Source: Nitrospinota bacterium
GTDB taxonomy: Bacteria > Nitrospinota_A > UBA7883 > JACRGQ01
Direction of reading: 5' to 3'
Length of the DNA: 64,000 nt
Assembly (NCBI GenBank): GCA_029881495.1
Contig: JAOUMJ010000008.1
Location: 39,160-103,159, forward strand
The translations under genes and the position numbers were made by a program. How positions within the stretch are numbered: position 1 is the stretch's first letter; each line of letters begins with the position of its first letter. The notes beneath the pieces were generated by a model. The model searched no databases, was not told the DNA's origin, and saw only the letters and a program-made list of their open reading frames with translations. Shown piece by piece: positions 24,395 to 56,977 of this stretch.

Positions 24395-25150
24395 ATGCGG
24401 ATGAATTCAAGTGGAACCGCAGTCATCATCCTTGCCGCAGGGAAGGGGAAAAGGATGAAATCCGACCTTCCGAAAGTTCTTCACCTTTTAAGGGGTAAGC
24501 CGCTAATTAACTGGGTGATCTCTGCCGTTGAAAGCATGATGCCTGCCAGGATCATCGCCGTTGTCGGCCATAAGGCGGAAGAGGTGGAAAGATCCCTTTC
24601 CGGCGGGAATATCCTTTTTGCCCGTCAGGAGGAACAGCTCGGCACAGGGCATGCCGTAGCGCAGGCTACCGGACTGCTAAGCGATTTTTCCGGGGATGTC
24701 TTTGTGCTTTGCGGGGACGTCCCTTTGATAAAAGCAGAAACCCTCCGCGAAATGCTGGATATCCACCGAAGGGATAAAAGCGCCGTCACTCTCCTCTCTG
24801 TGATCATGCAAAACCCTGCGGGATACGGCAGGATCTTGCGCGACAGCCGGGGGAACGTAATCGCGAATGTCGAGGAGAAATGCGCTACCGAATCGGAGAA
24901 GGGGATACGGGAAATAAACGGCGGCATCTATGTATTTGATTCGTCATTTCTGTTTGATTCCATTGGAAAGATTTCTTCCGATAATGCGCAGGGAGAATAC
25001 TTTCTCCCCGATCTCATAAAGATCGCGGTTGACATGGGGCTCAGCGTCTCTTCGCTTACGCTTGATAATTATCTGCAGTTGGTAGGCGTAAACAGGAACG
25101 AGGACCTGAAGCTTCTTGAAGATATGCTTGCTGAAAGGGTAGAGGTTTAA
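24395..25150 (+). CDS. GlmU-type UDP-GlcNAc pyrophosphorylase domain only
   Basis: Transfers UMP from UTP to GlcNAc-1-phosphate. The 251 residues cover just the uridylyltransferase half of GlmU; the C-terminal left-handed beta-helix acetyltransferase is missing, with a clean stop. Motifs are intact: IILAAGKGKRM with the catalytic Arg, SDLPKVLH, EQLGTGHAVAQA, LCGDVPLI, EINGGIYVFD and NAQGEYFLPDL. A separate beta-helix protein at 31919-32737 could supply the acetyltransferase activity. Only one base separates it from the TTG of the first glmS. Confidence 0.9.
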   Translation: MRMNSSGTAVIILAAGKGKRMKSDLPKVLHLLRGKPLINWVISAVESMMPARIIAVVGHKAEEVERSLSGGNILFARQEEQLGTGHAVAQATGLLSDFSGDVFVLCGDVPLIKAETLREMLDIHRRDKSAVTLLSVIMQNPAGYGRILRDSRGNVIANVEEKCATESEKGIREINGGIYVFDSSFLFDSIGKISSDNAQGEYFLPDLIKIAVDMGLSVSSLTLDNYLQLVGVNRNEDLKLLEDMLAERVEV

Positions 25151-25151
25151 T

Positions 25152-26972
25152 TTGTCAGGTATCGTAGGCTACATAGGTCACAGGGAGGCGAAGCCAAACA
25201 TTCTGGACGCTCTTGAACGTCTGGAATACAGGGGGTACGATTCCGCTGGGCTGGGGGTAATTTCGGAAGGGAAACTGAAAGTTTTCCGGACACTAGGGCG
25301 CACCTCCGTTTTGTCGGAAAAGCTGTCGAACATACAGCTCTCCGGGAGTATAGGGATAGGCCATACAAGATGGGCGACACACGGTATGCCGGCTGTAAGG
25401 AACGCCCACCCGCTCAAGACCGGAGGGACTGCGGTTGTCCATAACGGGATACTTCAGAACGCCGTCGATCTGAGGGTGGAGATAAAGGCCTACGGCGGGA
25501 AGCTGAGTTCCGAGACCGATTCAGAGGTTATACCCCATCTGGTAAACAGGCATTGGAAAGGGAATCTTCTCGCTTCAGTGCTTGAAGCGCTGAAAAAAAT
25601 CGAAGGTTCCGTTACCTGCTGTGTTATTTCCGAGAGGGATCCCGACAGCCTCGTTGCGGTACGGAAGGGAAATCCGCTCGTTGTAGGCCTTGGCGAAGGG
25701 GAGCAGTTTGTCGCCTCCGATGCGCCAGCTATCGCTCCTTATACAAACCGGATGGTCTATCTGAAGGATGGGGAAGTGGCGCTGTTATCCCACGAAGGGG
25801 CGCAGTTTTTCGATTTTTCAGGCAGGCCGATCATGCAGGATCCGCAGATCATTTCATGGAACCCTGTTCAGGCGGAGAAGAGGGGATATCGCCATTTCCT
25901 GCTTAAGGAGATAGTTGAATCGCCCCGGGCGGTCCGGGAAACGATTTCGCAGTTCCTTCCGATATCAAGCGAGAAGGTATCTATAGATTATTTTAATTTT
26001 CCACACATGGATATTGGTGATATCAGCCGGATAGTTTTTTTTGGCAGCGGTTCCTCCTATTATGCGGCCATGCTGGGACAGCTGTTTTGCGAGTCGATGT
26101 CCGGCATTTCCACGTCGAGGATATTCTCTTCCGAGTTTCGTTACGGCGCGAGAAAGATAGAAGATGGTGCTCTCTATGTGGCGATATCGCAGTCGGGAGA
26201 ATCGCTTGATACGCTCGAATCGGCAAGATATGTTTTGGCAAACGGCGGTAGGCTGATGGTGATTACGAATAATCCGTCCAGTTCACTCGGCATGATGGCG
26301 CACTATCCTCTTATAACCCAGGCCGGTCCGGAAGTGTCGGTTGCGTCGAGCAAGACCTTCAGCGCGACTCTTGCCGCGCTTATCATTCTCTCTTTCCATC
26401 TTGGCAAGGAGAATAAATTCCTTTCGAGGGAGGCACAGCAGAAGTTTGTAGACGAACTTGAGCGCGTATCCGAAAAAATGGAGATGATGATCACCTATGA
26501 GGCCCTTATACGGAGGCTTGCCGACCGTTTTACCACGCACAGATCCTTCTTTTTCGTGGGGCGCGGATTTCTTTATCCCATGTCTCTTTATTCCGCCTTG
26601 ATGATGAAAGAGGTTGCAAATATGCATGGTGAAGGGTTGCTGGCGGGAGAAATCAAGCATGGCTCCATTAGCCTGATAGAAAAGGGGACGCCGATAATGT
26701 TTTTCGGGAACCAGTCCTTTCTCAAGAACAGGCTGGCCGACGACCTGGATGAGCTGAAGGCCAGGGGCGCGACGGTGATCGCCACCGGATTCAGTACCGA
26801 TTCAGCGATCAGCAGGCATTGCGATGAATTTATTGCCGTTCCAAATATCGATGACAGGCTATCGCCGTTATTGGCGATTGTACCTGCGCAACTTTTTATT
26901 TATTATTTAGGGCTGTATAACAGAAAAGATATTGACCGGCCCAGAAATATCGCGAAGAGCGTGACAGTCTAG
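25152..26972 (+). CDS. GlmS paralogue with Ser in place of the catalytic Cys
   Basis: A 606-residue protein collinear with glucosamine-6-phosphate synthase. A TTG start (AGAGG at 25141-25145, in-frame stop at 25140) gives Met-Ser-Gly-Ile-Val-Gly-Tyr, where true GlmS has Met-Cys. After Met removal the N-terminal nucleophile would be Ser. The other glutaminase residues are kept: HTRWATHG, HNGILQN, SSETDSEV. In the two SIS domains (GSGSSYY, SQSGESLDT, SSKTFSAT) the residue aligning with E. coli Lys485 is Met (ALMMKEV), while the Glu488, His504 (KHG) and Lys603 (AKSVTV) equivalents remain. It may use free ammonia, act on another substrate, or regulate the second GlmS. Confidence 0.88.
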   Translation: MSGIVGYIGHREAKPNILDALERLEYRGYDSAGLGVISEGKLKVFRTLGRTSVLSEKLSNIQLSGSIGIGHTRWATHGMPAVRNAHPLKTGGTAVVHNGILQNAVDLRVEIKAYGGKLSSETDSEVIPHLVNRHWKGNLLASVLEALKKIEGSVTCCVISERDPDSLVAVRKGNPLVVGLGEGEQFVASDAPAIAPYTNRMVYLKDGEVALLSHEGAQFFDFSGRPIMQDPQIISWNPVQAEKRGYRHFLLKEIVESPRAVRETISQFLPISSEKVSIDYFNFPHMDIGDISRIVFFGSGSSYYAAMLGQLFCESMSGISTSRIFSSEFRYGARKIEDGALYVAISQSGESLDTLESARYVLANGGRLMVITNNPSSSLGMMAHYPLITQAGPEVSVASSKTFSATLAALIILSFHLGKENKFLSREAQQKFVDELERVSEKMEMMITYEALIRRLADRFTTHRSFFFVGRGFLYPMSLYSALMMKEVANMHGEGLLAGEIKHGSISLIEKGTPIMFFGNQSFLKNRLADDLDELKARGATVIATGFSTDSAISRHCDEFIAVPNIDDRLSPLLAIVPAQLFIYYLGLYNRKDIDRPRNIAKSVTV

Positions 26973-26987
26973 AAGGGAATTACCAGT

Positions 26988-28196
26988 ATGAAAGCGTTGA
27001 TCCTTGCCGCTGGCGGTGGAACGAACATGAGTCCGTTCTCTGAAACGAGGCCGAAATCTATGTTGCATGTCGCCGGGCGTCCCCTCCTTTACCGCACGAT
27101 AAACATGCTTAGGGATTCGGGTTTCAGCGAAGTTTTCCTCGTAATCGGCCCCAAAGGCGACAAGGTGAAGGAATATTTCGGTAATGGCGAAAATCTGGAC
27201 ATATCACTCAGTTATGTTTTCCAGAAAAAACAGGACGGTATTGGCGATGCGCTTCTTCAGGCGGAGAAATGGATTAATCCGGGGGAGCATTTTCTCCTGG
27301 TCTATTCGGATGTCGTTACGGACGAAAATATCTTTGCCAGTGTTTTACAGTCTTTTGGAGTTTCAAACGTACCGGTAGCGGGCATAGTGTTACCCACGCA
27401 GTCTTCCGCTTTCGGGAACGTTTATATGGATAAGAATATGGGGATAACGAAAATAGTGGAAAATCCCGCTGGCAAGGGTACAGGCAATTATGTGCTTGGA
27501 GGGGTGTTCGTGCTCCCATATGCTTTTTTCAGCTACCTGAAAAAAGTAAACGGCAATATGACGAAGGCGCTTGCGTCACTTATTTCGAACGAAGGATTGA
27601 AAGCCTCCATCTGGGAGAAGGGGTGGATAGACATCGGTTATCCATGGGACATTCTTTCAGCGAATCGGATGATCATGGATACATGGAAGACCTCCTCCGT
27701 CCATCAAAACATCGTGGTCAAGGATGCGAAACTGAAGGGCCCAGTATTTATAGAGGAGGGTGTGGAGATACGCTCGGGCGCGATCATCCAGGGGCCGTCG
27801 TTTATTGGAAGGGGTTCCTATATAGGGAACAATGTTCTTATAAGGAAATACTCCTCGCTGGGGCCAGAGTCTACCGTAGGTTTCGGCGTCGAACTAAAAA
27901 ACTGCGTCCTCTTCGGGAAATCCAGGATCGGCCGTCTCTCTTTCATAGGGGATAGCGTCATCGGCATGAATGTAGATATTGGTTCCGGCACAATGACGAT
28001 AAACTGCAATATCGACAAGGCCGTAGTTAAGACGAAGATAAACAGGACGGAATTGAACACAGGGATGTCAAAGCTCGGCGCGTTCGTCGGGGATAACTCC
28101 GTATTGGGTTGCGGGCACAATCTGAAGCCTGGTTCGATTATAAAGAACGGAGTGGTGGTACCGCATCATCTTACTTTCCCGAAAGAGGTGAGATAG
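26988..28196 (+). CDS. Two-domain sugar nucleotidyltransferase / beta-helix acyltransferase relative with altered active sites
   Basis: A 402-residue protein like the archaeal bifunctional sugar-1-phosphate nucleotidylyltransferase/acetyltransferases. Residues 1-235 are the nucleotidyltransferase fold: LAAGGGTNMSPFSETRPKSM, where the usual GTR is GTN, so the catalytic Arg is replaced. Residues 250-402 are a hexapeptide left-handed beta helix. The segment aligning with GlmU GHLTYLGD reads GRLSFIGD, replacing the catalytic His and a nearby Tyr by Arg and Phe. PKSM and an Asp in YSDVV are kept. It may be a scaffold, a regulator or an enzyme of changed specificity. It lies between the two glmS genes, ending 2 bases before the second. 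Confidence 0.82.
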   Translation: MKALILAAGGGTNMSPFSETRPKSMLHVAGRPLLYRTINMLRDSGFSEVFLVIGPKGDKVKEYFGNGENLDISLSYVFQKKQDGIGDALLQAEKWINPGEHFLLVYSDVVTDENIFASVLQSFGVSNVPVAGIVLPTQSSAFGNVYMDKNMGITKIVENPAGKGTGNYVLGGVFVLPYAFFSYLKKVNGNMTKALASLISNEGLKASIWEKGWIDIGYPWDILSANRMIMDTWKTSSVHQNIVVKDAKLKGPVFIEEGVEIRSGAIIQGPSFIGRGSYIGNNVLIRKYSSLGPESTVGFGVELKNCVLFGKSRIGRLSFIGDSVIGMNVDIGSGTMTINCNIDKAVVKTKINRTELNTGMSKLGAFVGDNSVLGCGHNLKPGSIIKNGVVVPHHLTFPKEVR

Positions 28197-28198
28197 CC

Positions 28199-30019
28199 AT
28201 GTGCGGAATCAGCGGCGTCGTTTCATCGCAGAATGTGGTTTCCAGGCTACAGTCCGGCATTCAGAATCTTGAATACAGAGGTTACGATTCATGCGGCATG
28301 GCCGTTCTGAACGGCAGTGGCACGGTCGTCAGGAAAAATATCGGTTATGTGGCGGAAGTTGCAGAAAGGGAGAAGTTCTCGTCGCTTACCGGTTCTGTCG
28401 GTATCGCTCACACAAGATGGGCCACCCACGGCGGCGTAACACAGCAGAACGCGCATCCGCATCTGAGTTGCGACGGCAGGATAGCGATAGTGCACAACGG
28501 AATAATAAGCAACTATCTGAAACTGAAAAAATACCTTGAAGGGCAGAAACATGTTTTCACTTCCGAGACCGATTCGGAAGTAGTCGCCCACCTGATAGAG
28601 GAGTATGTAAACAACGGAAGAACCATAGAAGCCGCGTTCGTGGAGGCGTTAAGGGAGCTGGAAGGTTCATTCGCCATCGCCCTCGTCTCGGTGAATGATC
28701 CGAACAGAATATATTGCGCCAAACATGAAAGTCCGCTCATCATCGGCCTCGGCGAGAACGAGAACTACGTCGGTTCCGATTTTAACGCCTTCATCGAACA
28801 CACCAAGAGTTCGGTCATTCTGGATGACGGGGAATTCGCGATTGTATCAAACGAAGGGTATTCGGTAAAAAAGATCAAGAATGGGGAGCCTGTCCTGAAA
28901 AAGGTAACCATCATTGAATGGGACGCCGAAATGGCCAAAAAAGGGGGCTTCCCGCATTTCATGCTCAAGGAGATTCACGAACAGCCAGATTCGGTAGCCA
29001 ATGTTCTCGCCATTGAAGAAAAGAAAATCGTGGAGCTCGCCCGGATGATTGTTGAAGCTAAACATTCATACCTTGTAGGCGTTGGCACCACATATTACGC
29101 CGCGCTGTTCGGGCAGTATCAGTTCGCGGAGCTCGCCGGGATCATGGCTCCGGCCGTTAGCTCGGACGAGGCGCTTGAATCCGCCCCGATGTCCGAGGGA
29201 GATTTTATCCTTGCCGTTTCACAGTCGGGCGAAACCTACGATACTCTCCGGGTGCTTCGTACAGCGAAAAAGAACCGGGTGAAAACCGCCGCCATCGTCA
29301 ATGTAATAGGTTCCACAATGTCGCGCATGGTCGACATTGCGGTGATGCAGGGGTCAGGGCCGGAGATATGCGTGATTTCCACCAAGGTGGCGATTGCGCA
29401 GATGGTCTCTCTCATGCGTGTCGCAATCGAGGCGGGAGTGATAACGAAAAAGATATCTCAGGCGAAAAAGAGGGAATACATGAAACAGCTGGGGAGCCTG
29501 CCGGAACTTATTGGCACCTTCCTCAACGAGAACTCCGCTTTCATACACAATCTTGCCACAAGGCAGGCGCATCAGAACAACTGGCTCTTCCTAGGCAGGG
29601 GGAAATATTATCCCATGGCTCTTGAGGCCGCGTTGAAGGTCAAGGAAGTCGCGTACCACCACGCCGAAGGTATGCCTGCCGGATTTCTAAAGCATGGCAC
29701 CATCGCGCTGATAGATGAAAAGATACGCACCATGGTTTTCCTCCCGCCCGAAAGCGACAAGGGACTTTATGGAATGATCATGAGTTCCATCGAAGAGGTG
29801 AACGCAAGAGGCGGGAGCATCGTCGGGATACATTTTTCAAAGTCGTTGAAAAACTCGAAGCTCTTTTCAGACCAGCTCTGTCTCCCCAAAACTCACCCCT
29901 TCATAGCGCCTATAATCACGCTGGTTGCGGCGCAACTATATTCCTATTTTGTGGCAACCGCCCTGGGACGCAATGTCGATAAGCCGAGGGCCCTGGCGAA
30001 GTCCGTTACCGTAGCGTGA
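28199..30019 (+). CDS. glmS: Glucosamine-6-phosphate synthase (canonical)
   Basis: Makes glucosamine-6-phosphate from fructose-6-phosphate and glutamine. The ATG at 28199 gives MCGISGVV, with Cys as N-terminal nucleophile; the upstream extension in the same frame overlaps the preceding gene and is not used. 606 residues. Glutaminase motifs HTRWATHGG, HNGIISN and TSETDSEVVAH; SIS domains with SQSGETYDT; the isomerase residues equivalent to Lys485, Glu488 (ALKVKEV), His504 (LKHGT) and Lys603 (AKSVTV) are all intact. Overlaps the next gene by 4 bases (GTGA). It is probably the main hexosamine-forming enzyme, paired with the Ser-variant paralogue at 25152-26972. Confidence 0.93.
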   Translation: MCGISGVVSSQNVVSRLQSGIQNLEYRGYDSCGMAVLNGSGTVVRKNIGYVAEVAEREKFSSLTGSVGIAHTRWATHGGVTQQNAHPHLSCDGRIAIVHNGIISNYLKLKKYLEGQKHVFTSETDSEVVAHLIEEYVNNGRTIEAAFVEALRELEGSFAIALVSVNDPNRIYCAKHESPLIIGLGENENYVGSDFNAFIEHTKSSVILDDGEFAIVSNEGYSVKKIKNGEPVLKKVTIIEWDAEMAKKGGFPHFMLKEIHEQPDSVANVLAIEEKKIVELARMIVEAKHSYLVGVGTTYYAALFGQYQFAELAGIMAPAVSSDEALESAPMSEGDFILAVSQSGETYDTLRVLRTAKKNRVKTAAIVNVIGSTMSRMVDIAVMQGSGPEICVISTKVAIAQMVSLMRVAIEAGVITKKISQAKKREYMKQLGSLPELIGTFLNENSAFIHNLATRQAHQNNWLFLGRGKYYPMALEAALKVKEVAYHHAEGMPAGFLKHGTIALIDEKIRTMVFLPPESDKGLYGMIMSSIEEVNARGGSIVGIHFSKSLKNSKLFSDQLCLPKTHPFIAPIITLVAAQLYSYFVATALGRNVDKPRALAKSVTVA

Positions 30020-31926
30020 CAAAAAACAGCTACGACAAAACCCCTCCTGCCGTAGCGCGTATTCAGGGGACGGACGGCGTTCGCGCGCAGGTCGCCATAG
30101 CGACAGGTTTTGAGGAGGGGCCTCTTGAAGTTTTTCAGAAGTATGGGGTGATGACGGAAGAGTTTTTCGAGCTCTACTGCTACTCCCATGTCACCGCCCT
30201 TATCGAGCGCGGAGAGCTGGAAAAAGGGGGAGAGGTGTTGATCGGCTGGGACTCCCGCGATGTTGAAGGATTCTACACATCCAAGGCGCTCTCCGGCATA
30301 GCAAAGGGTGGGGCAAAGCCGTGCGTACTTGGAACTATCCCGACGCCCGGTGTTTCGCTCGCACTTTTCGCGCGCGGTACCTCTACCGCCTTCATGATCA
30401 CCGCCTCACACAATCCGAGCGATCAGAATGGAATAAAGATATTTCTCTCTCCTCACGGAGGGAAAACCCTTCCCGCCGACGACGAGATATTGACGGCGAA
30501 ATTGTTTAAAACCGATTATGAAAAGGTGAGGCTGGCAAAAATTCTTTTTGAATCGGAAGATATCTCGTCCTGGGCGCGCTCACTGTTCATAGATTTTCAT
30601 GCCGACCCGCGCAACAGCTGGGGAGGAAAACAGGATCTTTTTGCCGACACGGTTGTTGTGCTGGATACGGCGCACGGGGCGACGGCAGGCGTCGTTAAAG
30701 ATATCTTCAACAGGTGCGGGATAAACGACATAATCCATGTGGCATCGGAGCAGAACGGGAACATAAACGAGAATTCGGGAGTCGCCATGCTGGAGGGGAT
30801 CAAGTCGATCAGCTACGCTGATTATGAGGCCGGCTCAAGCATTTCGTCTCACCAGGGTGTGAACGCGATATTTGCGGAGATCGCCTGTCGCCGTGAAGCA
30901 TACGCCAGGGGGGAGAAAAAACTATTTGGTGTAGTTTTCGATGGCGACGGCGACAGATTTTTCCTCCTCTACTACCAATCCGATAGCGATTCCGTGCATG
31001 TTCTTTCTGGGGATGAATGCGCGGCACTGCAGGGGGAATACCTGATAAAGAGAGATCCCGAAAAATACAGAGGGACGCTTTTCGTCCATTCGGTTGAAAG
31101 TGATATCAATCTGGCTCGGCACGCTGACGCTCTTGGATTTGTTCCGAGGCTCACCGCGGTAGGGGACAAATGGGTGCTTCAGGAGGCGATACTCTCGGGC
31201 GACAAATTCGGTATCGGATGCGAGGAGACAGGCCACTCCATACATGGCGGATACGCAGTCGATGCAAGCGGGTCGGAAAGGCTTTTCTATGCCGGAAACG
31301 GGATAAAGGGGGCCATAAACACTCTTTGCGCGATAATGGAACTTTCGAAAAGTGAGCGGGGATTTTCCGAAAAATTCCTCGAGCCTTTCGAGCCGGGTTA
31401 TAAAAAGACCTCCTACTCCTACTACGTCAACAAGAAATCGTTCCACCGTGGGAGCCGTATATGGAACGGGGTAAAGGAGATCGTGGAGAAATTTTTCTCC
31501 GCCGCTTCCGGCGAGTTTGTCATCAGGGAGGAGCCGATGGACTCCGAGCCAGATATGCTCTATTTCCTTATTCGGGACAAGGGGGATAAAATCATGGGGT
31601 CGGTTTTCGTAAGGAATTCCGGCACCGAGGACAAAATAGGGGTAAACCTTCGGGGCGATGCGCCTCTCAGCAAGATGCTTGGGGATGTTGCCGATGAAGC
31701 TGTGTTCTACCTGATGCGCGAAATGAAAAATATGGAAAATCCGCTGGCAAAGGCTGAAAGTGAGATACTGAAAAAGATATCAGAACGGGAATCGATTAAC
31801 GAAGATGAGTTCACCCATATCGGATTTAAAAGGCTGATTACGGAGATGGAGATAAAACAGAAGCTGATAAGGAGGTACGGGAGCGGTTATGAGCTTACCG
31901 GGCTGGGGAGGAGATTGATTGGTTAA
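30016..31926 (+). CDS. Phosphohexomutase (GlmM/phosphoglucomutase family), long form
   Basis: A 636-residue alpha-D-phosphohexomutase, some 180 residues longer than GlmM. All four active-site loops are present: phosphoserine loop MITASHNPSDQNGIK, metal loop VFDGDGDRFF, sugar loop GCEETGHS and phosphate loop VRNSGTED. The C-terminal 55 residues (from about 580) look like a small winged-helix-type tail. In this cluster it would convert glucosamine-6-phosphate to the 1-phosphate, but a glucose or mannose substrate cannot be excluded. The GTG at 30016 overlaps the glmS stop, so translation is coupled. Confidence 0.85.
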   Translation: MTKNSYDKTPPAVARIQGTDGVRAQVAIATGFEEGPLEVFQKYGVMTEEFFELYCYSHVTALIERGELEKGGEVLIGWDSRDVEGFYTSKALSGIAKGGAKPCVLGTIPTPGVSLALFARGTSTAFMITASHNPSDQNGIKIFLSPHGGKTLPADDEILTAKLFKTDYEKVRLAKILFESEDISSWARSLFIDFHADPRNSWGGKQDLFADTVVVLDTAHGATAGVVKDIFNRCGINDIIHVASEQNGNINENSGVAMLEGIKSISYADYEAGSSISSHQGVNAIFAEIACRREAYARGEKKLFGVVFDGDGDRFFLLYYQSDSDSVHVLSGDECAALQGEYLIKRDPEKYRGTLFVHSVESDINLARHADALGFVPRLTAVGDKWVLQEAILSGDKFGIGCEETGHSIHGGYAVDASGSERLFYAGNGIKGAINTLCAIMELSKSERGFSEKFLEPFEPGYKKTSYSYYVNKKSFHRGSRIWNGVKEIVEKFFSAASGEFVIREEPMDSEPDMLYFLIRDKGDKIMGSVFVRNSGTEDKIGVNLRGDAPLSKMLGDVADEAVFYLMREMKNMENPLAKAESEILKKISERESINEDEFTHIGFKRLITEMEIKQKLIRRYGSGYELTGLGRRLIG

Positions 31927-32737
31927 AATACCAGGTTACCAGGGGTTGTTCCCTTCCGTGAAAGATTTTGACCATGCGGCGATTTTCACCGGATGCGAAA
32001 GGGCCTGGGACGCGCTTGCGAAAATAGAAGGGTATATCAGCGGATATATTTCCGCCCTGGAGGATACCCCTATTCCCGAAGGACTTGAAATACAGTCGGG
32101 GCACGAGTCTTACCTTTTCTGTTCCAGCCCTCTTCGGCTGGAGAGGGATTTTTATTCGAGCAGTTTGAAAATACTGATAAGGAGCGGAACAAGAATAGAG
32201 ACAACGGCTATCATAAAGGGACCGGCGATAATCGGCAAAAACTGCGATATACGGCAGGGGGCATACTTGAGGGGATACTTGATAGCAGGCGATACATGCA
32301 CACTCGGGCATACGACGGAGATAAAAGGCTCCATCATCATGAACCATTCCGAGATGGGGCATTTCAATTACATCGGTGATTCGGTCATCGGCAGTTTCGT
32401 AAATATCGGCGCGGGAACGAAACTCGCCAACCTGAAATTCCGCTCCCCTTCCGAAAAGGAGAACGTGAATTTCCCCGAGATAAGTTTTGTGGCGAAAGAT
32501 CCGGAAAACGGCAAATCGGAAATAGTGATGACAGGGTTGTCGAAATTCGGCGCCGTGCTTGGCGATTACTGCGAGCTGGGGTGCAACTCCGTTCTTTCGC
32601 CCGCTGTCATCCTCGGCACCGAGTGCTGGGTCTATCCGAATTTCACCGTGCCATCGGGATATTACGATGCGAAAAGTTTTATCGCCCCAGCGACGCTGAA
32701 GGCGAAAACACGCCCCCTTCCGCATAGTTCCCGTTAA
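31919..32737 (+). CDS. Stand-alone left-handed beta-helix acetyltransferase, GlmU C-terminal type
   Basis: A 272-residue protein with a helical start and hexapeptide-repeat beta helix (about 90-265; IKGPAIIGKNCDIRQGAYLRG and further turns). The segment EMGHFNYIGDSVIG followed by VNIGAGTKLANLK retains the His and Tyr equivalent to E. coli GlmU His363 and Tyr366. It is therefore a good candidate for acetylating glucosamine-1-phosphate, complementing the truncated GlmU. The TTG start at 31919 overlaps the mutase end by 8 bases behind a strong GGGGAGGAG site. It is the last gene of the amino-sugar cluster. Confidence 0.82.
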   Translation: MVKIPGYQGLFPSVKDFDHAAIFTGCERAWDALAKIEGYISGYISALEDTPIPEGLEIQSGHESYLFCSSPLRLERDFYSSSLKILIRSGTRIETTAIIKGPAIIGKNCDIRQGAYLRGYLIAGDTCTLGHTTEIKGSIIMNHSEMGHFNYIGDSVIGSFVNIGAGTKLANLKFRSPSEKENVNFPEISFVAKDPENGKSEIVMTGLSKFGAVLGDYCELGCNSVLSPAVILGTECWVYPNFTVPSGYYDAKSFIAPATLKAKTRPLPHSSR

Positions 32738-47526: not shown

Positions 47527-48921
47527 ATGAAGCATAAGTTTTCGATTTTGATACTTGATGATGAAGCGGAAATAGTAAGGATCCTTGAGAAGGCGCTTGA
47601 AACCGAATATAACGTAATTGGGGAGACGGAAGTTGAGCCTGCAAGGAAATATCTTGCTGCGAACAGAGTGGACGTTCTGGTGCTTGATTACCGCTTGAAG
47701 AATGAGAATGGGCTGGATCTGCTGGCCGAGTTCAAGCAATCCTATCCGGAGATGGAAGTTATTATGATTACCGGGTATGGCGATATCGAGATGGCCGTCC
47801 TGGCGGTAAAGTCCGGCGCTTTCCATTTCCTTTCAAAACCGTTTAAAAATGACGTTCTGAAAAATCTTATAAAAAAGGCTCTTACAAAAAAAGAGTTTGA
47901 GATGATGATGCAGAACATCAAGGGGGAAGCCGAAGCGAAATACAAGATAAGCAATATCCCCGGTTCAGGACTGCGCATAAAGAGCGTAAGAGAGCTGGTG
48001 AAGAAGGCTCAGGAAGTGGAAAGCAACGTTCTGATACTCGGCGAGAACGGTACCGGAAAGGAGTTTTTCGCGCGCGTAATTCACACCGGCAGCAGGAGGA
48101 TGGAGTACCCGTTCCTTGCTTTTAATTGTAGCACCTTGGGCGCGGACGATATCAAGGTGGAGCTTTTTGGATTGGTTGGGAGCGAAACCGCGGGGACGAA
48201 GACTCGAAGGACCGGGATTTTCGAAGCGGTTGGCGACGGGACCATTTTTCTTTCGGACATTTTTGCACTGCCGTATGAAATAAAAGAGATGGTTGAGGAC
48301 GTGATAAAAACCGGCGAGTTCCTTCCGGTTGGTGGAGTAGCGCCACAGGACAATATCGTTTTTTCAGGCCGAATCATCGGTGGGGCATCCGGTTTGGATG
48401 ATTCCCATGCCGATGACGTGAACGGTTCCGGAAGTCTGTACAGGCAATTATCGGAATTTCCGATAATAGTTCCGCCTCTCAGAGAGAGGGGTGGGGATAT
48501 AAAGGAGATTGCCGAATATTTCCTCCGCAGGAACGGCGAAAGGCTTGGGAAAAATTTTTCCGGTTTTTCAACAGACGCGATGAATATGATCTGCGCCTAC
48601 TCATGGCCCGGCAACCTCCGGCATCTTGAAAATATCATTGAAAGGGTTTCAATTCTTGAAGATGGAAATGAGATTACCACCAAGTATCTCCCTTCCGAGA
48701 TAGTCGAAAGCTACACTGCATCGGGAGTCCCCGACAAGATCTCAAACTACAGGCAGTTCATGAAGGTCAGCAACGATATCTCCTCAATGAAATACATGAA
48801 AAATGTATTGAAGGAAACAGGCGGCAACGTCACAAAGGCCGCTTCCATTGCCGGCATGAAAAGGGAATCGTTTCATAGGCTCCTTAAAAAGCACAAGATA
48901 AGTTCAAAAACACTTCAATAG
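47527..48921 (+). CDS. NtrC-like response regulator with degenerate sigma-54 activator domain
   Basis: A 464-residue REC-AAA+-HTH protein. The receiver domain has Asp54 (VLVLDYRLKNENG) and a TGYGDIEMAV segment. The AAA+ domain keeps Walker A (GENGTGKE, 172-179), but the GAFTGA loop that contacts sigma-54 is replaced around 217-225 (LVGSETAGTK). Walker B reads IFLSDI instead of LFLDEI (Ser243 for Asp). The Fis-type HTH (GGNVTKAASIAGMKRESFHR) is intact. It probably binds DNA and responds to phosphorylation but cannot open sigma-54 promoters; repression, anti-activation or work with another sigma factor are options. No partner kinase adjacent. Confidence 0.88.
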   Translation: MKHKFSILILDDEAEIVRILEKALETEYNVIGETEVEPARKYLAANRVDVLVLDYRLKNENGLDLLAEFKQSYPEMEVIMITGYGDIEMAVLAVKSGAFHFLSKPFKNDVLKNLIKKALTKKEFEMMMQNIKGEAEAKYKISNIPGSGLRIKSVRELVKKAQEVESNVLILGENGTGKEFFARVIHTGSRRMEYPFLAFNCSTLGADDIKVELFGLVGSETAGTKTRRTGIFEAVGDGTIFLSDIFALPYEIKEMVEDVIKTGEFLPVGGVAPQDNIVFSGRIIGGASGLDDSHADDVNGSGSLYRQLSEFPIIVPPLRERGGDIKEIAEYFLRRNGERLGKNFSGFSTDAMNMICAYSWPGNLRHLENIIERVSILEDGNEITTKYLPSEIVESYTASGVPDKISNYRQFMKVSNDISSMKYMKNVLKETGGNVTKAASIAGMKRESFHRLLKKHKISSKTLQ

Positions 48922-50437: not shown

Positions 50438-51469
50438 TCAGGAAAGAAGCCTGGTGATATCGCTGTAAAAGGCGTACAGGAAAAGTAGCGCCATCATGGC
50501 GAGGCCGGTTCTATGAAACATTTCCATTGCGCTCTCGTTCACCGGGCTACCCTTGATGCTTTCTATGAACAGAAGAAGGAGTTCCCCGCCATCAAGCACC
50601 GGTATCGGTAAGAGATTGAATACGGCGAGGTTCAGGGAGAGCATCGCCGCAAAGGCAAATAGCGGCACCAGGCCGGCATCGGCCTGATCTCCAGCGGCCA
50701 TAAGAATGAAAATAGGGCCGGCTATACTTTCGGAAGAGACCTGGTTCGAAAACATCTTAAACAGCATATGGATTATGAGACGGCAGTTGTTAAGCGTCTT
50801 TTCCGTTCCATAGTAGAGAGATTCGAAAAGACCCATTTTTTCACCCGACATACGGAATGTAATCCCTATTCTCCCGACGATCTTTTCCTCGCCAGTTTGA
50901 TCTACTATCTTTACGGCATCGGGTATGACGGTCGTTGAAAATACTTTTCCACCATCTTTTTCTATATCCAGGCGAAGCGGGGCCCCAGGTGAGTCAGCGA
51001 GAAGCGCGGCAAGCTCGTTCTGGCTCTCAATTTTCTTTCCTGATGTTCCGACAATTTTATCGCCCGCAATCAATCCACCTCTCTCTGCAGGGGAGCCGGA
51101 AGTTACAGCTTGCACGATGTTCGTAGGGATTTGTCCCCCGATGGAAAAGAGCGTGGAGAATATGATGACTGCCAGCACAAAATTTGCCAGCGGCCCTGCA
51201 AAAGCTACGAGGGCTCTCTTCCAGACAGGTTTGCGGTTCAAAGACATTTCGCTTCCGTCATTTAGTATTGCTACATATCCGCCAAGCGGTATGAGCGACA
51301 GCCTGTATTCAGTGCCGAAAAATTTCCTTTTCCACAATGCCCGCCCGAAACCAATGGAAAATATTTCCACCCGTGCTCCGGTCGCTACCGCCATAAGGAA
51401 GTGCCCCACCTCATGTACAAATACAAGCAGGCTCAGGGTAAGCAGAGCAAGGATTATATTAGTTGCCAA
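50438..51469 (-). CDS. RIP/site-2 protease, RseP family, second copy
   Basis: A 343-residue membrane metalloprotease: zinc site VHEVGHFLMA in the first helix, FGRALWKRKFFGTEYRLSLI and PLGGYVAI, one PDZ domain (about 115-190), and the C-terminal NLLPIPVLDGGE with the Asp ligand. The last residue of the usual LDGGH is Glu. It directly follows the other rseP-like gene (32-base gap). The two paralogues differ throughout, so this is an old duplication, not a recent repeat. Confidence 0.88.
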   Translation of the reverse strand: MATNIILALLTLSLLVFVHEVGHFLMAVATGARVEIFSIGFGRALWKRKFFGTEYRLSLIPLGGYVAILNDGSEMSLNRKPVWKRALVAFAGPLANFVLAVIIFSTLFSIGGQIPTNIVQAVTSGSPAERGGLIAGDKIVGTSGKKIESQNELAALLADSPGAPLRLDIEKDGGKVFSTTVIPDAVKIVDQTGEEKIVGRIGITFRMSGEKMGLFESLYYGTEKTLNNCRLIIHMLFKMFSNQVSSESIAGPIFILMAAGDQADAGLVPLFAFAAMLSLNLAVFNLLPIPVLDGGELLLLFIESIKGSPVNESAMEMFHRTGLAMMALLFLYAFYSDITRLLS

Positions 51470-51501: not shown

Positions 51502-52569
51502 TTACTCACTTGCCATAAAACGTGTGATGTCGTTATAGAACGCGAATGCCATCAAGGTTATCAAAAGGAATATCCCTACCTGCTGGGCGATCTCTCTCCC
51601 CTTCAGGCTCACCGGCCCCCCTTTTATCGCCTCAATAGCAAAAAACATTATGTGTCCGCCGTCAAGGATCGGTACAGGGAGAAGGTTAAGGAAACCGAGG
51701 TTCACCGAAAGGACACCCATGAACATCAACAGTGGGATCAATCCTGCCTGAGCTTGGTCGCCTGCGATCTTGAAGATCATCAGCGGCCCGCCGATTGTAT
51801 TCGCGGGGACGATCTGTTGCACCATTTTTACAATTACCATACCGGTCAGGTAAATTATCTCTATCATCTTCTTAGTGCCAAGATATGCGGCGGTGAAGGG
51901 GTCGTATCTTTTGAATACAGTGTCGGGGCTTATCCCTATGCGCCCAACGCGAATATCCTCACCAAAAATGGTCTTGGACGACTGCGCTTCGGGCGTGATG
52001 GAAACGTATCTAATAGAGCCGGTTTCCGGCTGAATAGTCAGTTCAAGCTGTTTGTCCGGCGCTTGACCGATGACCTCCGAGAGTTCGGACCATGAGGATA
52101 TTTCCTTGCCGTCGATTTCGACAATCCTGTCGCCGGAGATGATCCCGACGCCATGTGCAGGCGATCCTGCCACGACAGTCTTGATCTTAGTATCAGGCAC
52201 ATCTATGCCGATCATGTAAACAAGCATGAATACCAGCGCCGCGAAAATAAGATTCGCAAGAGGCCCGGCAAAAACAATAAGGAACCTTCGCCACACAGCC
52301 TTGCTATTGAAGGAAATTTCCGGATTTTCCGGAACGGGGGCGTCTTCCCCTTCCTCGTCGCCGACCATCTTTACGTATCCGCCGAACGGTATCCATGCAA
52401 CGATGAACTCTGTTTCGCCGATTTTCTTCTGCCACATCGGTCGTCCAAAGCCGATTGAAAATTTCTCGACGCCGACCCCCATTTTTCTGGCCATCCAGAA
52501 GTGTCCCCATTCGTGGACTATTATCAGTATTCCAAGGACAAAAATTGCGGACACGACGTATAGCAGCAT
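51502..52569 (-). CDS. rseP: RIP/site-2 protease RseP
   Basis: A 355-residue intramembrane zinc protease for regulated proteolysis of anti-sigma factors or signal-peptide remnants. VHEWGHFWMARKMGV, FGRPMWQKKIGETEF, PFGGYVKMVGDEEGED, a PDZ domain (about 125-200) and NLLPVPILDGGHIMFF. Only one PDZ domain, against two in E. coli RseP. It follows lolA by 7 bases at the distal part of the lpxC-fusion operon. Confidence 0.92.
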   Translation of the reverse strand: MLLYVVSAIFVLGILIIVHEWGHFWMARKMGVGVEKFSIGFGRPMWQKKIGETEFIVAWIPFGGYVKMVGDEEGEDAPVPENPEISFNSKAVWRRFLIVFAGPLANLIFAALVFMLVYMIGIDVPDTKIKTVVAGSPAHGVGIISGDRIVEIDGKEISSWSELSEVIGQAPDKQLELTIQPETGSIRYVSITPEAQSSKTIFGEDIRVGRIGISPDTVFKRYDPFTAAYLGTKKMIEIIYLTGMVIVKMVQQIVPANTIGGPLMIFKIAGDQAQAGLIPLLMFMGVLSVNLGFLNLLPVPILDGGHIMFFAIEAIKGGPVSLKGREIAQQVGIFLLITLMAFAFYNDITRFMASE

Positions 52570-52576
52570 TTGAATA

Positions 52577-53239
52577 TTACTCCAGTTTTAGGTTCGGCAG
52601 TCTTACAGCTTCGACACCCTTTGGTGTTTTAAAGTTAAAGCTGTCATCGTTCATATCTCCATTTATGGCGATATCGAAAAACTCGATATCGGTTCTGTTA
52701 TCGGCCCAATCAATAATTGAAATAGAGCGGATTCTCCAGTTTTTTGAATCTACGCCAATGAGTATCCGCGTAACGGAAATGGATTCCTTTTTCGGTATTA
52801 ACTCAAGCCTTATTTCCTTTGATATTCTATCTTTATTTTCCCCGGTAGCCAACCTTATCGTGAAAATTTCTTTCAACGCGTATTCCCCAGCCAGAAACAG
52901 AGCGGGGGAGCTGGTGTTGATCACGTTCCCGATCTTCTCGACCAGCACCTGATTCTCCTCCGGGATATAAAGATAAATGTTTTTCCCGTTTGACACGATT
53001 ATCTGCTCATCCGGTGGATCGTATGTCCACCGCATCATGAGACGCTTTTTCATCTTGACCTTGCCGGTTGATTTCTCGGAATCTTCCATACCTGCGTCAT
53101 GGAAAGTTTGCCTGAATTTCGCGCTCATGGTTCGCATGGAGGCGAATTCTTTTTCGACGTTTTCAATTATCTCCTTCTCCGAAAATGCGTGGGTCAGGGA
53201 AGGGGTTAAGATCATTAAAAAGATCATTGCCGTTCTCAT
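52577..53239 (-). CDS. lolA: Outer-membrane lipoprotein carrier LolA
   Basis: Periplasmic chaperone carrying lipoproteins from LolCDE to the outer membrane. True start ATG 53239, overlapping the rhomboid stop (ATGA), with signal peptide MRTAMIFLMILTPSLTHAFS. The mature part has FASMRTMSAKFRQTFHD, GKVKMKKRLMMRWTYDPPDE, QIIVSNGKNIYLYIPEENQV and the late FNFKTPKGVEAV. About 220 residues, matching the family. Confidence 0.88.
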   Translation of the reverse strand: MRTAMIFLMILTPSLTHAFSEKEIIENVEKEFASMRTMSAKFRQTFHDAGMEDSEKSTGKVKMKKRLMMRWTYDPPDEQIIVSNGKNIYLYIPEENQVLVEKIGNVINTSSPALFLAGEYALKEIFTIRLATGENKDRISKEIRLELIPKKESISVTRILIGVDSKNWRIRSISIIDWADNRTDIEFFDIAINGDMNDDSFNFKTPKGVEAVRLPNLKLE

Positions 53240-53895
53240 GCGGGCAGCTCCTTCCCAAGCCTGAAAAAGGGGTAGAGGATGATCCCGGCCAGAAAACCCC
53301 CCACATGGCTTCCCCAGGCTATCTGGTCGGCGTTTCCTATCGACATGATCTGTACCAAAAACCAGGTGGTGATCAGGAGCCAGGCCGGTAAGGGAAATAT
53401 TTTTACAATGATAAAAAACCAAAAGAGTGTATGAACCTTTGCGCGCGGAAACGCTATCAGGTATGCGGCTAGAATGCCGGATACCGCACCGCTCGCGCCG
53501 ACCAACGGCAGATCTGAATTTGTAAACTGGTAAATGTGGGCAAATACCGCCGCTATTCCGCAAAGGATATAAAAAAGCATGAATTGGAAATGGCCAAAAA
53601 TGTCTTCAATATTGTTTCCGAATATCCAGAGGAACAGCATGTTGCCCGCGATATGCATCAGCCCCCCATGCAGGAACATGGAGGTTATTATGGTTATCCC
53701 GATCGGGTATGGAATAGTTGGCTCAACGTCCCGCATATTGAGGATCTCCAGCGGGGTAACGCCGTACTGGAACAAATAGAGATTGAAATGTCCTGAGGTG
53801 GCCTGAGCAAAAAAGATCCCGGCATTCGCTACTATCAACGCCATGGTAATGTAGGATATGTTTTTAGTGGGATTTGTATCGTAAAGAGGTATCAT
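53236..53895 (-). CDS. Rhomboid family intramembrane serine protease
   Basis: A 219-residue protein with six membrane helices. Catalytic Ser in VGASGAVSGILAAY and His in WGSHVGGFLAG, plus the conserved MFLHGGLMHIAGNMLFLWIF helix pair with the Asn. Cuts membrane-spanning substrates; the natural target is unknown. It overlaps its neighbours on both sides by 4 bases, so it is a firm member of the lpxC-fusion operon. Confidence 0.92.
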   Translation of the reverse strand: MIPLYDTNPTKNISYITMALIVANAGIFFAQATSGHFNLYLFQYGVTPLEILNMRDVEPTIPYPIGITIITSMFLHGGLMHIAGNMLFLWIFGNNIEDIFGHFQFMLFYILCGIAAVFAHIYQFTNSDLPLVGASGAVSGILAAYLIAFPRAKVHTLFWFFIIVKIFPLPAWLLITTWFLVQIMSIGNADQIAWGSHVGGFLAGIILYPFFRLGKELPA

Positions 53896-54311
53896 TCCCC
53901 GACCTCTCTAAGATTGAATCCGTTTCTCAACAGCATGGCGGCGGTTACACCGATTTTGGGAGAAAGGCCGCATGACGGACTTTTCGATTTAAGGAATATA
54001 ATTTCCGGAGAAACAATATTTCCAAGCGCGGCAGTTTTTTCAGCCCCTTTTATCATCTGTTCCGTTCTGTCTGTCCCGTCCGAGTCCATAATGCGAGCGC
54101 GATTATCAATTACATCATTGCCGTCGCCATCGATTATCTGCACACGCTTGCGGGGAATTCCCATCTCGCCGAATATTTCGGGACAAAAAGGGATAACCAG
54201 ACCCTTCGTAAACAGGGTAGAGAGATCGGCATCCTCTCTTGATGTGCCGTCATACCGGCAATTGACTCCGGCAAGGCAGGCGGAGGCCATATATTTAATC
54301 TTTCCTTCCAT
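53892..54311 (-). CDS. DUF523 family protein
   Basis: A 139-residue cytoplasmic protein: ASACLAGVNCRYDGTSREDA, FCPEIFGEMGIPRKRVQI and ILKSKSPSCGLSP (here FLKSKSPSCGLSP), with three conserved Cys. These motifs define DUF523, a family related to the YbbK-type proteins, with a possible thiouridine-desulfurase or iron-sulfur role that I cannot verify here. It overlaps purN by 17 bases. Confidence 0.88.
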   Translation of the reverse strand: MEGKIKYMASACLAGVNCRYDGTSREDADLSTLFTKGLVIPFCPEIFGEMGIPRKRVQIIDGDGNDVIDNRARIMDSDGTDRTEQMIKGAEKTAALGNIVSPEIIFLKSKSPSCGLSPKIGVTAAMLLRNGFNLREVGE

Positions 54312-54933
54312 CGCTGTTATGTACCGTCACCACTCCATTTTTTATGGTTATTCTTTTTTCAAGAAGCGCGGAGATTACTTTGGGATAAATGAGATGCTCC
54401 TGTTCGAGGATCCTTTCCGAAAGTGCCTGCACGGAATCGTTCTGGTTCACCTTTACCTTTGCCTGCATGATAATCGGCCCGGTATCCACGCCGCTGTCGA
54501 CAAAGTGAACTGTGCATCCCGATTCTTCCACCCCCGCGTCAAGCGCCTGCCTTTGGGCCTCCAGCCCCGGAAATGAAGGGAGTAACGAGGGGTGGATGTT
54601 GATGATCCTGTTTGGAAATGCCGCTACGACATTTTCACCCAGTATTCTCATGAATCCGGCGAGGCATATATATTCTACCCCCCTGCTTGCCAGTTCGCTC
54701 TTTATCCCCTCTCCGTAGGCTATGCGGCCCTTATGTTTTTTGGGGTCAAGGAAAACCGTTTCGATCCCATGTTCAGCGGCGATGGTCAGTGCTTTGGCGT
54801 CCAGGTTATCGCTAAGCACTACTCTTGGAAAGTAAGGGACGATATTTTTTGTAACAGCTTCCAGGAGAGCTTGGAGGTTGCTTCCTCGGCCCGAGGCCAG
54901 AACAGCGTACTCCGGGATCAATTTCGGGGGCAT
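54295..54933 (-). CDS. purN: Phosphoribosylglycinamide formyltransferase PurN
   Basis: Transfers the formyl group from 10-formyl-THF to GAR in purine synthesis. 212 residues. Motifs: VLASGRGSNLQALLEA, ICLAGFMRILG, RIINIHPSLLPSFPGLEAQRQ with the catalytic His, and GCTVHFVDSGVDTGPIIMQ with the catalytic Asp. Its start lies 7 bases after the LpxC-fusion stop; a purine gene in an envelope operon probably reflects growth-rate coupling or chance. Confidence 0.95.
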   Translation of the reverse strand: MPPKLIPEYAVLASGRGSNLQALLEAVTKNIVPYFPRVVLSDNLDAKALTIAAEHGIETVFLDPKKHKGRIAYGEGIKSELASRGVEYICLAGFMRILGENVVAAFPNRIINIHPSLLPSFPGLEAQRQALDAGVEESGCTVHFVDSGVDTGPIIMQAKVKVNQNDSVQALSERILEQEHLIYPKVISALLEKRITIKNGVVTVHNSDGRKD

Positions 54934-54940
54934 AGTGGAT

Positions 54941-56977
54941 TTAAAGAGTTTCCCGTATTTTTTTAAGCATTGCGATGTTTTCGGTATGACCAGTCAGCCT
55001 GGCTGATATCTTGCCGATAAGCGGTCTACCCAGAAGGTACATATCGCCAAGTATGTCGAGTATCTTGTGCCGCGCGAACTCATCCTCAAAGCGCAGGGTG
55101 GTATTCACTATTTTTTCATCATCTACCAGGATGACGTTCGTGAGCTTCCCCCCTTCCGCGAGTCCGGCCTCTTCGAAATTTTTAATGTCGGAAACAAATC
55201 CGAATGTTCTCGCGGGCGCGATCTCTGTCTTGAAAAATTCAAGGCCATTCATTTTAAAAACCGCGTCCATCTTGCCTACCGGTTGCGGGTAGTCCATGTG
55301 ATAGTGGATCTCGAGCTTGTCGGACGGTTCTATCGTGAGGGATTTTGTACGGTTATCGCCTTCACCTATCGTGATTGGAGCGGTTATGATTATCGGCTCG
55401 ATCTCGTCGTCCTGTTCCACAACGCCCGCATGCTCGATCAGCTTGCAAAACGCCGCCGCGGAACCATCCATGATCGGCACCTCATCGTTTACTTTTAACA
55501 GTGCGTTGGTGATGCCGTAAATATGGAGCGTTGCCATTATGTGCTCGATTGTTTTCACGCTAGTGCCACCGAACTTTATTGATGTCGCATATCCTGTAGT
55601 ATCCACATGGTCGACAAGCGCGGCAACCTGCCTGCCGGATGATATATCCCCGAATATGATACCGCTCCTGGGAGGGAGTGGAGAGATTATCAGTCCGGTT
55701 TTTGTTCCCGAATGGAGGCCCAGGCCGGTAAGGACGACACTCTGGCCGATGGTCTTCTGCAGGTATGTTCTCCCTTTCTTCTTCATTCTCTTTTTTGTGG
55801 TATTTTCTCTCTTGGTGAGGAACCTTTCCGTGGACGAATTGCTCTTCTTCTTGAGCGAATAGTCAAATGCGATGTCGGATTGTTCGATAAGGTGGGCAGG
55901 GCAAGACATCAGCGTGTTCTCAATGACGCTTTGCAGCTCTTTTACGTTACCGGGCCATGGGTAAGAGATCATCCTGTCCATTGCCTTTTCGGAAACGTCG
56001 ACGTCGGGTTTACCGAAATCCTCAGAAGCGTGGCCGACAAAATAAATTATCAATTCGGATATGTCCTCTTCACGTTCCCTTAGCGCGGGGAGGCGCAGCT
56101 CGTGTTTTTTAAAAAAAACCTTAAGGCTGGCATCCATATTCTTGATTTTCCTGTTCGCCGAGGTTTGGAGAGACGCGATAAAACGAACCGTCTTTTTCCT
56201 TTTTCCGTTTTGAAGTTTAATAAGCGCCGCGATTCTCTTCTGGATTTTTGTGTCAAACAGGTTCGGGTTTGCCATGAATACCGTTCCGGTAATTTTGCTG
56301 AACTTCGAGTTCTTCGCTGAAAGGTCCTCATTTAGCGGTCCGAATAGTTTTTCAAAGGCTGAAGTTGTCAGGTCTATTGAATCCACGGTGATGAACGGTT
56401 CGTCCTGGAGCTTTGAGTTTTGGTGGATATAGGAAGCGGTGTATTGCTTCCCTGTGCCGTCTTCGCCGATTATTAAAACAGGGTCGAAGGTTTTTGAAGC
56501 CTTGGTAGCCTGTTTTAATACTTCTCTCATCGCGGCAGATTTGGCCACATAACGGTACTCCCCCTTTTTTCCTATTACTGCATTTTTACTCTTTTTTCCG
56601 CTCCTCTTCTGTTTCAGCACCGAGTGGATAGTCTCAAGAACCGTATCGAGTGAAAGCGGTTTTTCAATGAAGTTGTGTGCCCCAAGCTTCGTCGCCCTTA
56701 CCGCTGTGTCTATCGAACCATGTCCCGAGATCATTATCACGTCGACATCCATTTTCCGTTTGCGTATTTCGCGAAGTGTCTGCAATCCGTCTTTACGTCC
56801 GGGGAGCCAAATGTCCAGAAGCACGAGGTCGAAGGCTTTTTCCTTGAGTATTTCGAGAGCCTTGTCGCCGCTTTGGGTGATATCTACTTCGTAACCTTCG
56901 TCGGTAAGGATGCCGTTGAGGGATTCTGTTATATTTTCCTCGTCATCAACTACCAGGATGCTGCCTTTTTTGTTCAT
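54941..56977 (-). CDS. Response-regulator receiver and degenerate AAA+ domain fused to LpxC
   Basis: A 678-residue three-part protein. Residues 5-120: receiver domain with Asp11-Asp12, phospho-acceptor Asp55 (LLDIWLPG) and conserved SGHGSID and Lys106. Residues 141-385: NtrC-type AAA+ with Walker A GEDGTGKQ (171-178), but no GAFTGA loop and no acidic Walker B (GTVFMANP, 231-238); LPALREREEDI and PWPGNVKELQ remain. There is no Fis HTH: residues 402-678 are a complete LpxC with TIEHIMATLH (His479), HKILDILGD (His637, Asp641) and TGHTENI (His664), the zinc and catalytic residues of UDP-3-O-acyl-GlcNAc deacetylase. An internal ATG at codon 398 could also yield free LpxC. Confidence 0.93.
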   Translation of the reverse strand: MNKKGSILVVDDEENITESLNGILTDEGYEVDITQSGDKALEILKEKAFDLVLLDIWLPGRKDGLQTLREIRKRKMDVDVIMISGHGSIDTAVRATKLGAHNFIEKPLSLDTVLETIHSVLKQKRSGKKSKNAVIGKKGEYRYVAKSAAMREVLKQATKASKTFDPVLIIGEDGTGKQYTASYIHQNSKLQDEPFITVDSIDLTTSAFEKLFGPLNEDLSAKNSKFSKITGTVFMANPNLFDTKIQKRIAALIKLQNGKRKKTVRFIASLQTSANRKIKNMDASLKVFFKKHELRLPALREREEDISELIIYFVGHASEDFGKPDVDVSEKAMDRMISYPWPGNVKELQSVIENTLMSCPAHLIEQSDIAFDYSLKKKSNSSTERFLTKRENTTKKRMKKKGRTYLQKTIGQSVVLTGLGLHSGTKTGLIISPLPPRSGIIFGDISSGRQVAALVDHVDTTGYATSIKFGGTSVKTIEHIMATLHIYGITNALLKVNDEVPIMDGSAAAFCKLIEHAGVVEQDDEIEPIIITAPITIGEGDNRTKSLTIEPSDKLEIHYHMDYPQPVGKMDAVFKMNGLEFFKTEIAPARTFGFVSDIKNFEEAGLAEGGKLTNVILVDDEKIVNTTLRFEDEFARHKILDILGDMYLLGRPLIGKISARLTGHTENIAMLKKIRETL

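Follow-up and report, generated by a model that had tools for sequence, protein, structure and literature searches.

On the minus strand of the window, the whole 64,000-nucleotide stretch of Nitrospinota bacterium DNA analysed here, positions 54941–56977 hold a single gene encoding a protein of 678 residues, in which an NtrX-type response regulator is fused to LpxC, which catalyses the committed step in making lipid A for the outer membrane. Pfam matches follow one another along this protein in the order receiver (REC), degenerate NtrC-type AAA+ and complete LpxC. The REC domain, which is of NtrX type, occupies residues 7–117 (56627–56959; PF00072, Response_reg, 8e-30) and contains the phospho-acceptor Asp55, whose codon lies at 56813–56815. 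It is followed by a degenerate sigma-54 AAA+ domain at residues 144–299 (56081–56548; Sigma54_activat/Sigma54_activ_2, 1e-12), by an AAA+ lid domain at residues 300–381 (55835–56080; AAA_lid_14, PF25601, 4e-19) and by the LpxC domain at residues 407–674 (54956–55759; PF03331, 2e-80), all encoded on the minus strand. A preliminary description of this DNA, which did not state the strand, had reported one uninterrupted REC-AAA-LpxC frame with Asp55 in the receiver, an AAA+ domain that keeps Walker A without the GAFTGA loop and the acidic Walker B, and a complete LpxC replacing the DNA-binding domain, all of which is borne out by the domain matches and by our reading of the motifs. A single-sequence structure prediction of the fused protein gave a mean pLDDT of 36 and a pTM of 0.27, too low to be interpreted.

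The LpxC part of the fusion passes the curated cut-offs (270 bits against 27 in Pfam, and 223.7 against 187 for the NCBIfam lpxC equivalog) and retains every catalytic position, namely Glu478-His479, Thr591, His637, Asp641 and His664, which include the zinc ligands (His, His and Asp) and the catalytic Glu, Thr and His. It is also the only LpxC in a 2.8-Mb genome in which LpxB and LpxK are both found, which indicates that a lipid A pathway exists in this organism and runs through the fused protein. As the sole LpxC of such a genome, the fused protein is predicted to be a functional LpxC deacetylase. In its full set of catalytic and zinc-binding positions, and in being the sole LpxC of its genome, it resembles canonical LpxC, which is controlled by FtsH/LapB proteolysis, by MurA (in Pseudomonas) or at the level of transcription. 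It differs from the canonical enzyme in belonging to a separate sequence clade, the members of which, where read, always carry an N-terminal receiver.

This architecture is widespread. LpxC was found in 20 of the 24 genomes of the window's phylum. All matches there that no contig end truncates are fusions, in open frames of about 670 residues upwards, and the truncated matches agree with the fusion as far as they can be read. A second phylum, sampled in 77 genomes, likewise has its LpxC as a fusion, as does a phylum represented by one genome. When 385 genomes were searched with a profile of the fused LpxC domain, 40 matches scored 360–490 bits and the next LpxC scored 266 bits; each of the 40 lies in an open frame of 427 residues or more, compared with about 300 for bare LpxC, and no bare LpxC is among them. 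Outside the first two phyla, the REC-AAA-LpxC order was read directly in families f57, f183, f87, f63, f101, f152 and f38, and a REC-LpxC order in families f15, f109, f168, f239, f207 and f97. The fused proteins form one clade in the LpxC tree (SH-aLRT 100 on a long branch, and 100/100 with more taxa), which spans the window's phylum, the second phylum and, beyond these two, about a dozen families, and an N-terminal REC was present on every complete member examined. To judge from this tree, the fused clade has a single origin. The preliminary description had treated the fusion as one odd protein; it is instead the universal form of LpxC across a large clade. Open frames of 426–458 residues in other phyla, considered as further REC fusions, were discarded, being LpxC with a C-terminal extension where inspected, and a receiver query on the long open frames of G197 (626) and G292 (757) gave no match. 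A single-protein scan of genome contigs returned only four unrelated receiver proteins.

The same survey bears on the reading that takes the long frame for an artefact, or its product for mostly free LpxC made from an internal start. The relatives were checked for a break between the AAA+ and LpxC parts, and 58 complete fused proteins were found with open frames; because these come from independent genomes, errors of sequencing or assembly do not account for the fusion. An internal ATG (Met398, 55784–55786) does stand ahead of the LpxC domain in the window, and the preliminary description had proposed that this codon, read from 55786, could yield a free LpxC form. We rejected this start, as the nearest relatives lack Met398 and no convincing ribosome-binding site precedes it. 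With the same open architecture in dozens of independent genomes, and with dN/dS low in both REC and LpxC, we regard an artefactual frame or a mostly free LpxC product as extremely improbable.

The residues required for phosphorylation and for deacetylation have been kept almost throughout. The REC of the window's protein retains Asp11, Asp12, Asp55, Ser84 and Lys106; of 58 fused proteins, all have the phospho-acceptor Asp, 57 have the REC Lys and all have the LpxC catalytic residues. The AAA+ domain of the window's protein keeps Walker A (GEDGTGKQ, residues 171–178) and has otherwise decayed: the GAFTGA region reads EKLFGPLNEDLS, against ESELFGHEKGAFTGA in canonical NtrX, Walker B reads GTVFMANPN with the Asp-Glu pair gone, against GTLFLDEIG in canonical NtrX, and the arginine finger is missing. 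This decay is general, as GAFTGA was found in none of 49 fused AAA+ domains, while the canonical NtrX controls carry GAFTGA or GSFTGA, and the arginine finger was likewise found in none of the 49. The Walker B Asp-Glu is left in one of the 49, and 47 still have the Walker A Gly-Lys, the Lys having been lost in the other two. Nine examined fused members have no AAA+ domain at all, and REC is kept in every one of these. A Fis helix-turn-helix between AAA+ and LpxC was sought and found neither in the window's protein nor anywhere in its phylum; outside that phylum, some fused lineages keep a Fis-type helix-turn-helix at this position (HTH_8, 3e-4 to 4e-5, which is weak and above chance).

The balance of conservation between the domains has also been inverted. 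In canonical NtrX the AAA+ domain is the better conserved (70% identity, against 54% for REC), whereas the fused proteins show the reverse, with 32–42% identity in AAA+ and 63–71% in REC. Among 11 close pairs, dN/dS was 0.02–0.14 for REC, 0.01–0.13 for LpxC and 0.11–0.28 for AAA+ plus lid, from which it follows that the AAA+ remnant is relaxed yet still selected and hence has some function beyond our present explanation. In the tree of the fused clade, at least three changes are required between forms with and without AAA+. In G060 (L062) the AAA+ domain is gone and the Fis-type helix-turn-helix is kept, which gives the direction of change there as loss. These patterns suggest repeated loss, first of the Fis helix-turn-helix and later of the entire AAA+ domain, although the tree gives no order for the deepest REC-LpxC rows.

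Two alternatives can be weighed against these motifs. The preliminary description had suggested that LpxC is controlled through ATP-dependent oligomerisation of the AAA+ domain, a possibility compatible with the Walker A Gly-Lys of 47 of the 49 domains and with the purifying selection on AAA+ described above. We consider this mechanism very unlikely, given that Walker B and the arginine finger have been lost almost or entirely throughout, that even the Walker A Lys is gone in two relatives, that nine examined members dispense with AAA+ whereas none has given up REC, and that the tree forces several changes between the two forms. The second alternative is a bifunctional protein, in which the NtrX half would still act as a transcription factor or anti-activator and the LpxC half would be constitutive, the fusion fixing no more than their co-expression. 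The lineages that keep a Fis-type helix-turn-helix speak for this, but every fused AAA+ domain lacks GAFTGA, the helix-turn-helix is absent throughout the window's phylum, leaving the window's protein without a recognisable DNA-binding part, and some members have no AAA+ domain, which together make a bifunctional protein just as improbable. Because GAFTGA is gone from all 49 AAA+ domains, the helix-turn-helix and then AAA+ have been lost, and the phospho-acceptor Asp and the catalytic residues have been kept, we conclude that the NtrX part is no longer a sigma-54 activator. That it has been turned from such an activator into an input module for LpxC is, taken jointly with the control by NtrY discussed below, what we hold to be probable.

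The assignment of the regulator to NtrX is based on several observations. The best NCBIfam match of the front half of the fusion is NtrX (8e-66, 222.8 bits, short of the NtrX equivalog cut-off of 600), and the fused REC branches with the REC of canonical NtrX (97/87 with one NtrX). Across the window's class, its own family apart, the gene order is mostly DUF4390-ntrY-[ntrX::lpxC], often followed by purN-lolA-rseP; the same DUF4390-ntrY-[ntrX::lpxC] neighbourhood occurs in part of the second phylum, and ntrY lies immediately upstream of the fusion in f57, f183, f87, f63 and f152. The identity of NtrY is backed by HAMP, PAS, HisKA and HATPase domains and by the NtrY_N family. Genomes with a fusion appear to have no separate NtrX, their best NtrC-type proteins being at most 48% identical to canonical NtrX, which is the level of paralogues, compared with 55–58% in genomes with a true NtrX. 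To judge from its sequence, the front half of the fusion descends from NtrX. It resembles the NtrX of Rhodobacter, Caulobacter and Brucella (REC-AAA+-Fis) in REC sequence and tree position, in linkage to ntrY and DUF4390 and in the involvement of lpxC, which is at the transcript level in those bacteria. It differs from them in an AAA+ domain without GAFTGA, Walker B or arginine finger, in having no DNA-binding domain in the window's lineage and in having LpxC as its output. An unfused operon lpxC-ntrY-ntrX, with a fully canonical NtrX, was found in two unrelated families (L122:6092-10782 and L123:8006-12572), which suggests that the functional link between lpxC and ntrYX is wider than the fusion.

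In the window's family and several others, ntrY is not linked to the fusion and usually stands beside its DUF4390 gene with no adjacent ntrX. This is the case in the window's genome, where ntrY (G000:C21:13997-16204) lies behind a DUF4390 gene and has no ntrX of its own, so that in this family the case for NtrY as the partner comes from the relatives and from the lack of any other NtrX. The unlinked ntrY leaves room for the reading in which some kinase besides NtrY phosphorylates REC in its place, or in which REC is never phosphorylated and serves as an atypical structural receiver. Family f109 is also pertinent here: the genomes of its REC-LpxC members have no recognisable NtrY, and in G031 NtrY is weakly recognised, which shows that NtrY is not the partner in every lineage. 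The f109 proteins (L238, L239 and L245) carry substitutions at otherwise conserved REC active-site positions, among them Lys to Arg in L238 and a change in the acidic pocket in L245. A REC active site that changes where NtrY is missing is what would be expected if NtrY were the input, and the f109 receiver is possibly losing its control by phosphorylation. Wherever NtrY is kept, however, the full phosphorylation site is kept too, and NtrY either adjoins the fusion or lacks an ntrX partner gene. A different kinase, or none, is an unlikely general explanation, although, with many other NtrC-type regulators and kinases in the window's genome, cross-talk or another kinase is conceivable there.

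The comparison names both the regulator behind the fusion, NtrX, and its likely kinase, NtrY with a DUF4390 partner. The explanation that we favour, and hold with fair assurance, is that the fused NtrX has ceased to be a transcription factor and now serves LpxC as its input module, under the control of NtrY. The membrane kinase NtrY, together with its DUF4390 partner, would phosphorylate Asp55 of the fused REC, and the phosphorylated receiver would then alter the amount of active LpxC, the simplest routes being dimerisation or release from the kinase. In this way an envelope sensor probably controls LpxC directly and not via gene expression. Control of LpxC by a direct phosphorelay, which had been raised on first reading of the locus, gains support as the likeliest purpose of a fusion that is real, has a phosphorylatable REC and has lost the function of a sigma-54 activator. 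As regards the means, REC and LpxC are separated by anything from about 20 to 330 residues in the fused proteins, a tolerance that makes a rigid allosteric lever unlikely. Dimerisation is more likely, as is recruitment to the membrane-bound kinase or control of stability.

The last two of these means overlap with a narrower reading, in which the NtrX part is a tether or stability tag: REC would bind NtrY at the inner membrane and hold LpxC there, or would expose LpxC to, or hide it from, a protease such as FtsH, phosphorylation switching binding or degradation only and not catalysis. Access of a protease had also been raised in the preliminary description. The retention of REC in all members while the domains behind it erode or vanish, and the freedom of spacing, would both suit such an arrangement, and LpxC is elsewhere controlled mainly by proteolysis or localisation (PMC12444477). 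On the other hand, nothing in this analysis points to membrane binding or to a degron, and a strictly conserved phospho-acceptor Asp, together with the Lys, would serve no purpose in a pure tether. We consider this sub-mechanism a serious candidate, if somewhat short of an even chance. As to the direction of the phospho-control itself, we lean slightly towards a lowering of LpxC output upon phosphorylation, by analogy with alphaproteobacteria, in which NtrYX lowers the lpxC transcript.

Several known systems connect these components. In Rhodobacter sphaeroides lacking ntrYX the lpxC transcript is up 8.8-fold and LPS is increased, an effect that is indirect as far as is known (PMC7240162), and the effect of NtrYX on lpxC in Caulobacter goes in the same direction according to a 2025 review, which mentions no fusion (PMC12444477). 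The Bordetella DUF4390 protein PlrP acts via an NtrY-type kinase, apparently by restraining its phosphatase activity (PMC13001219). For the response regulator DVU2934 of Desulfovibrio vulgaris, lpxC is the only mapped target, and in Syntrophobacter lpxC adjoins an operon orthologous to that of DVU2934 (PMC3333781); DVU2934 acts unfused, by binding the lpxC promoter, and in the proteins studied here the regulator is fused to LpxC. A link between regulator and LpxC is thus already known at the level of transcription, and in the fusion it is built into the protein.

Fusions of a comparable kind also exist. In the bifunctional LpxC-FabZ proteins (PRK13188 type) LpxC is likewise joined to another domain, but there the C-terminus carries a second biosynthetic enzyme, and here the N-terminus carries a phosphorylation switch. 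Closer in design are the enzyme-output response regulators, such as the CheB methylesterase, REC-GGDEF and REC-HD-GYP, in which a receiver is directly joined to an enzyme; the conservation of the fused REC suggests that its phosphorylation may alter enzyme output. The fused proteins differ from these regulators in that the output here is the committed step of lipid A synthesis and not a signalling enzyme, and in that the regulator comes from a sigma-54 activator. We searched the literature for an earlier description of an NtrX-LpxC fusion and found none, most subscription journals lying outside the search; the REC-LpxC architecture is probably visible in domain databases. Enzyme-output response regulators, NtrX and LpxC are each known, and a regulator derived from a sigma-54 activator with LpxC as its output across a broad clade is apparently new.

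To our knowledge, the control of LpxC outside the gamma- and alphaproteobacteria is largely an open matter, and for many lineages the fusion offers a concrete answer, in which an envelope-sensing kinase would be wired directly to the enzyme of the committed lipid A step. One protein unites two separate facts, the lowering of the lpxC transcript by NtrYX in alphaproteobacteria and the position of lpxC beside ntrYX in other lineages. The fused proteins also provide a natural series in which a sigma-54 activator sheds its transcription function and turns into a regulator of an enzyme; with them LpxC joins the output domains known from response regulators, and they have a bearing on LpxC as a drug target.

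The purN-lolA-rseP part of the conserved neighbourhood is found in the window as well, again on the minus strand. The purN gene (54295–54933; PF00551, 1e-50) lies 7 bases downstream of the fusion, and beyond it are an ORF holding the LolA-like gene (52577–53563; cluster C2), the true start of which is probably well inside the ORF, and an rseP-like gene (51502–52569; cluster C1). The latter is one of two rseP-like site-2 protease genes that stand side by side on this strand, the other being at 50438–51469. Between flagellar and lipid-related genes, an NtrC-family regulator (47527–48921, plus strand) has GSETAGT for GAFTGA and a Walker B (FLSDI) without Asp-Glu, and still has its Fis helix-turn-helix; it was dismissed as a separate NtrX because its REC branches far from NtrX. 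In one relative, a frameshift or an assembly error has divided ntrY into two open frames that abut (G021:C59:2981-5235). Finally, amino-sugar genes are unusually doubled at 24395–32737 (plus strand) of the window, where, as read from the sequence, a short GlmU-like pyrophosphorylase (251 aa), two GlmS paralogues and a nucleotide-sugar pyrophosphorylase are clustered with a phosphohexomutase and a left-handed beta-helix acyltransferase.
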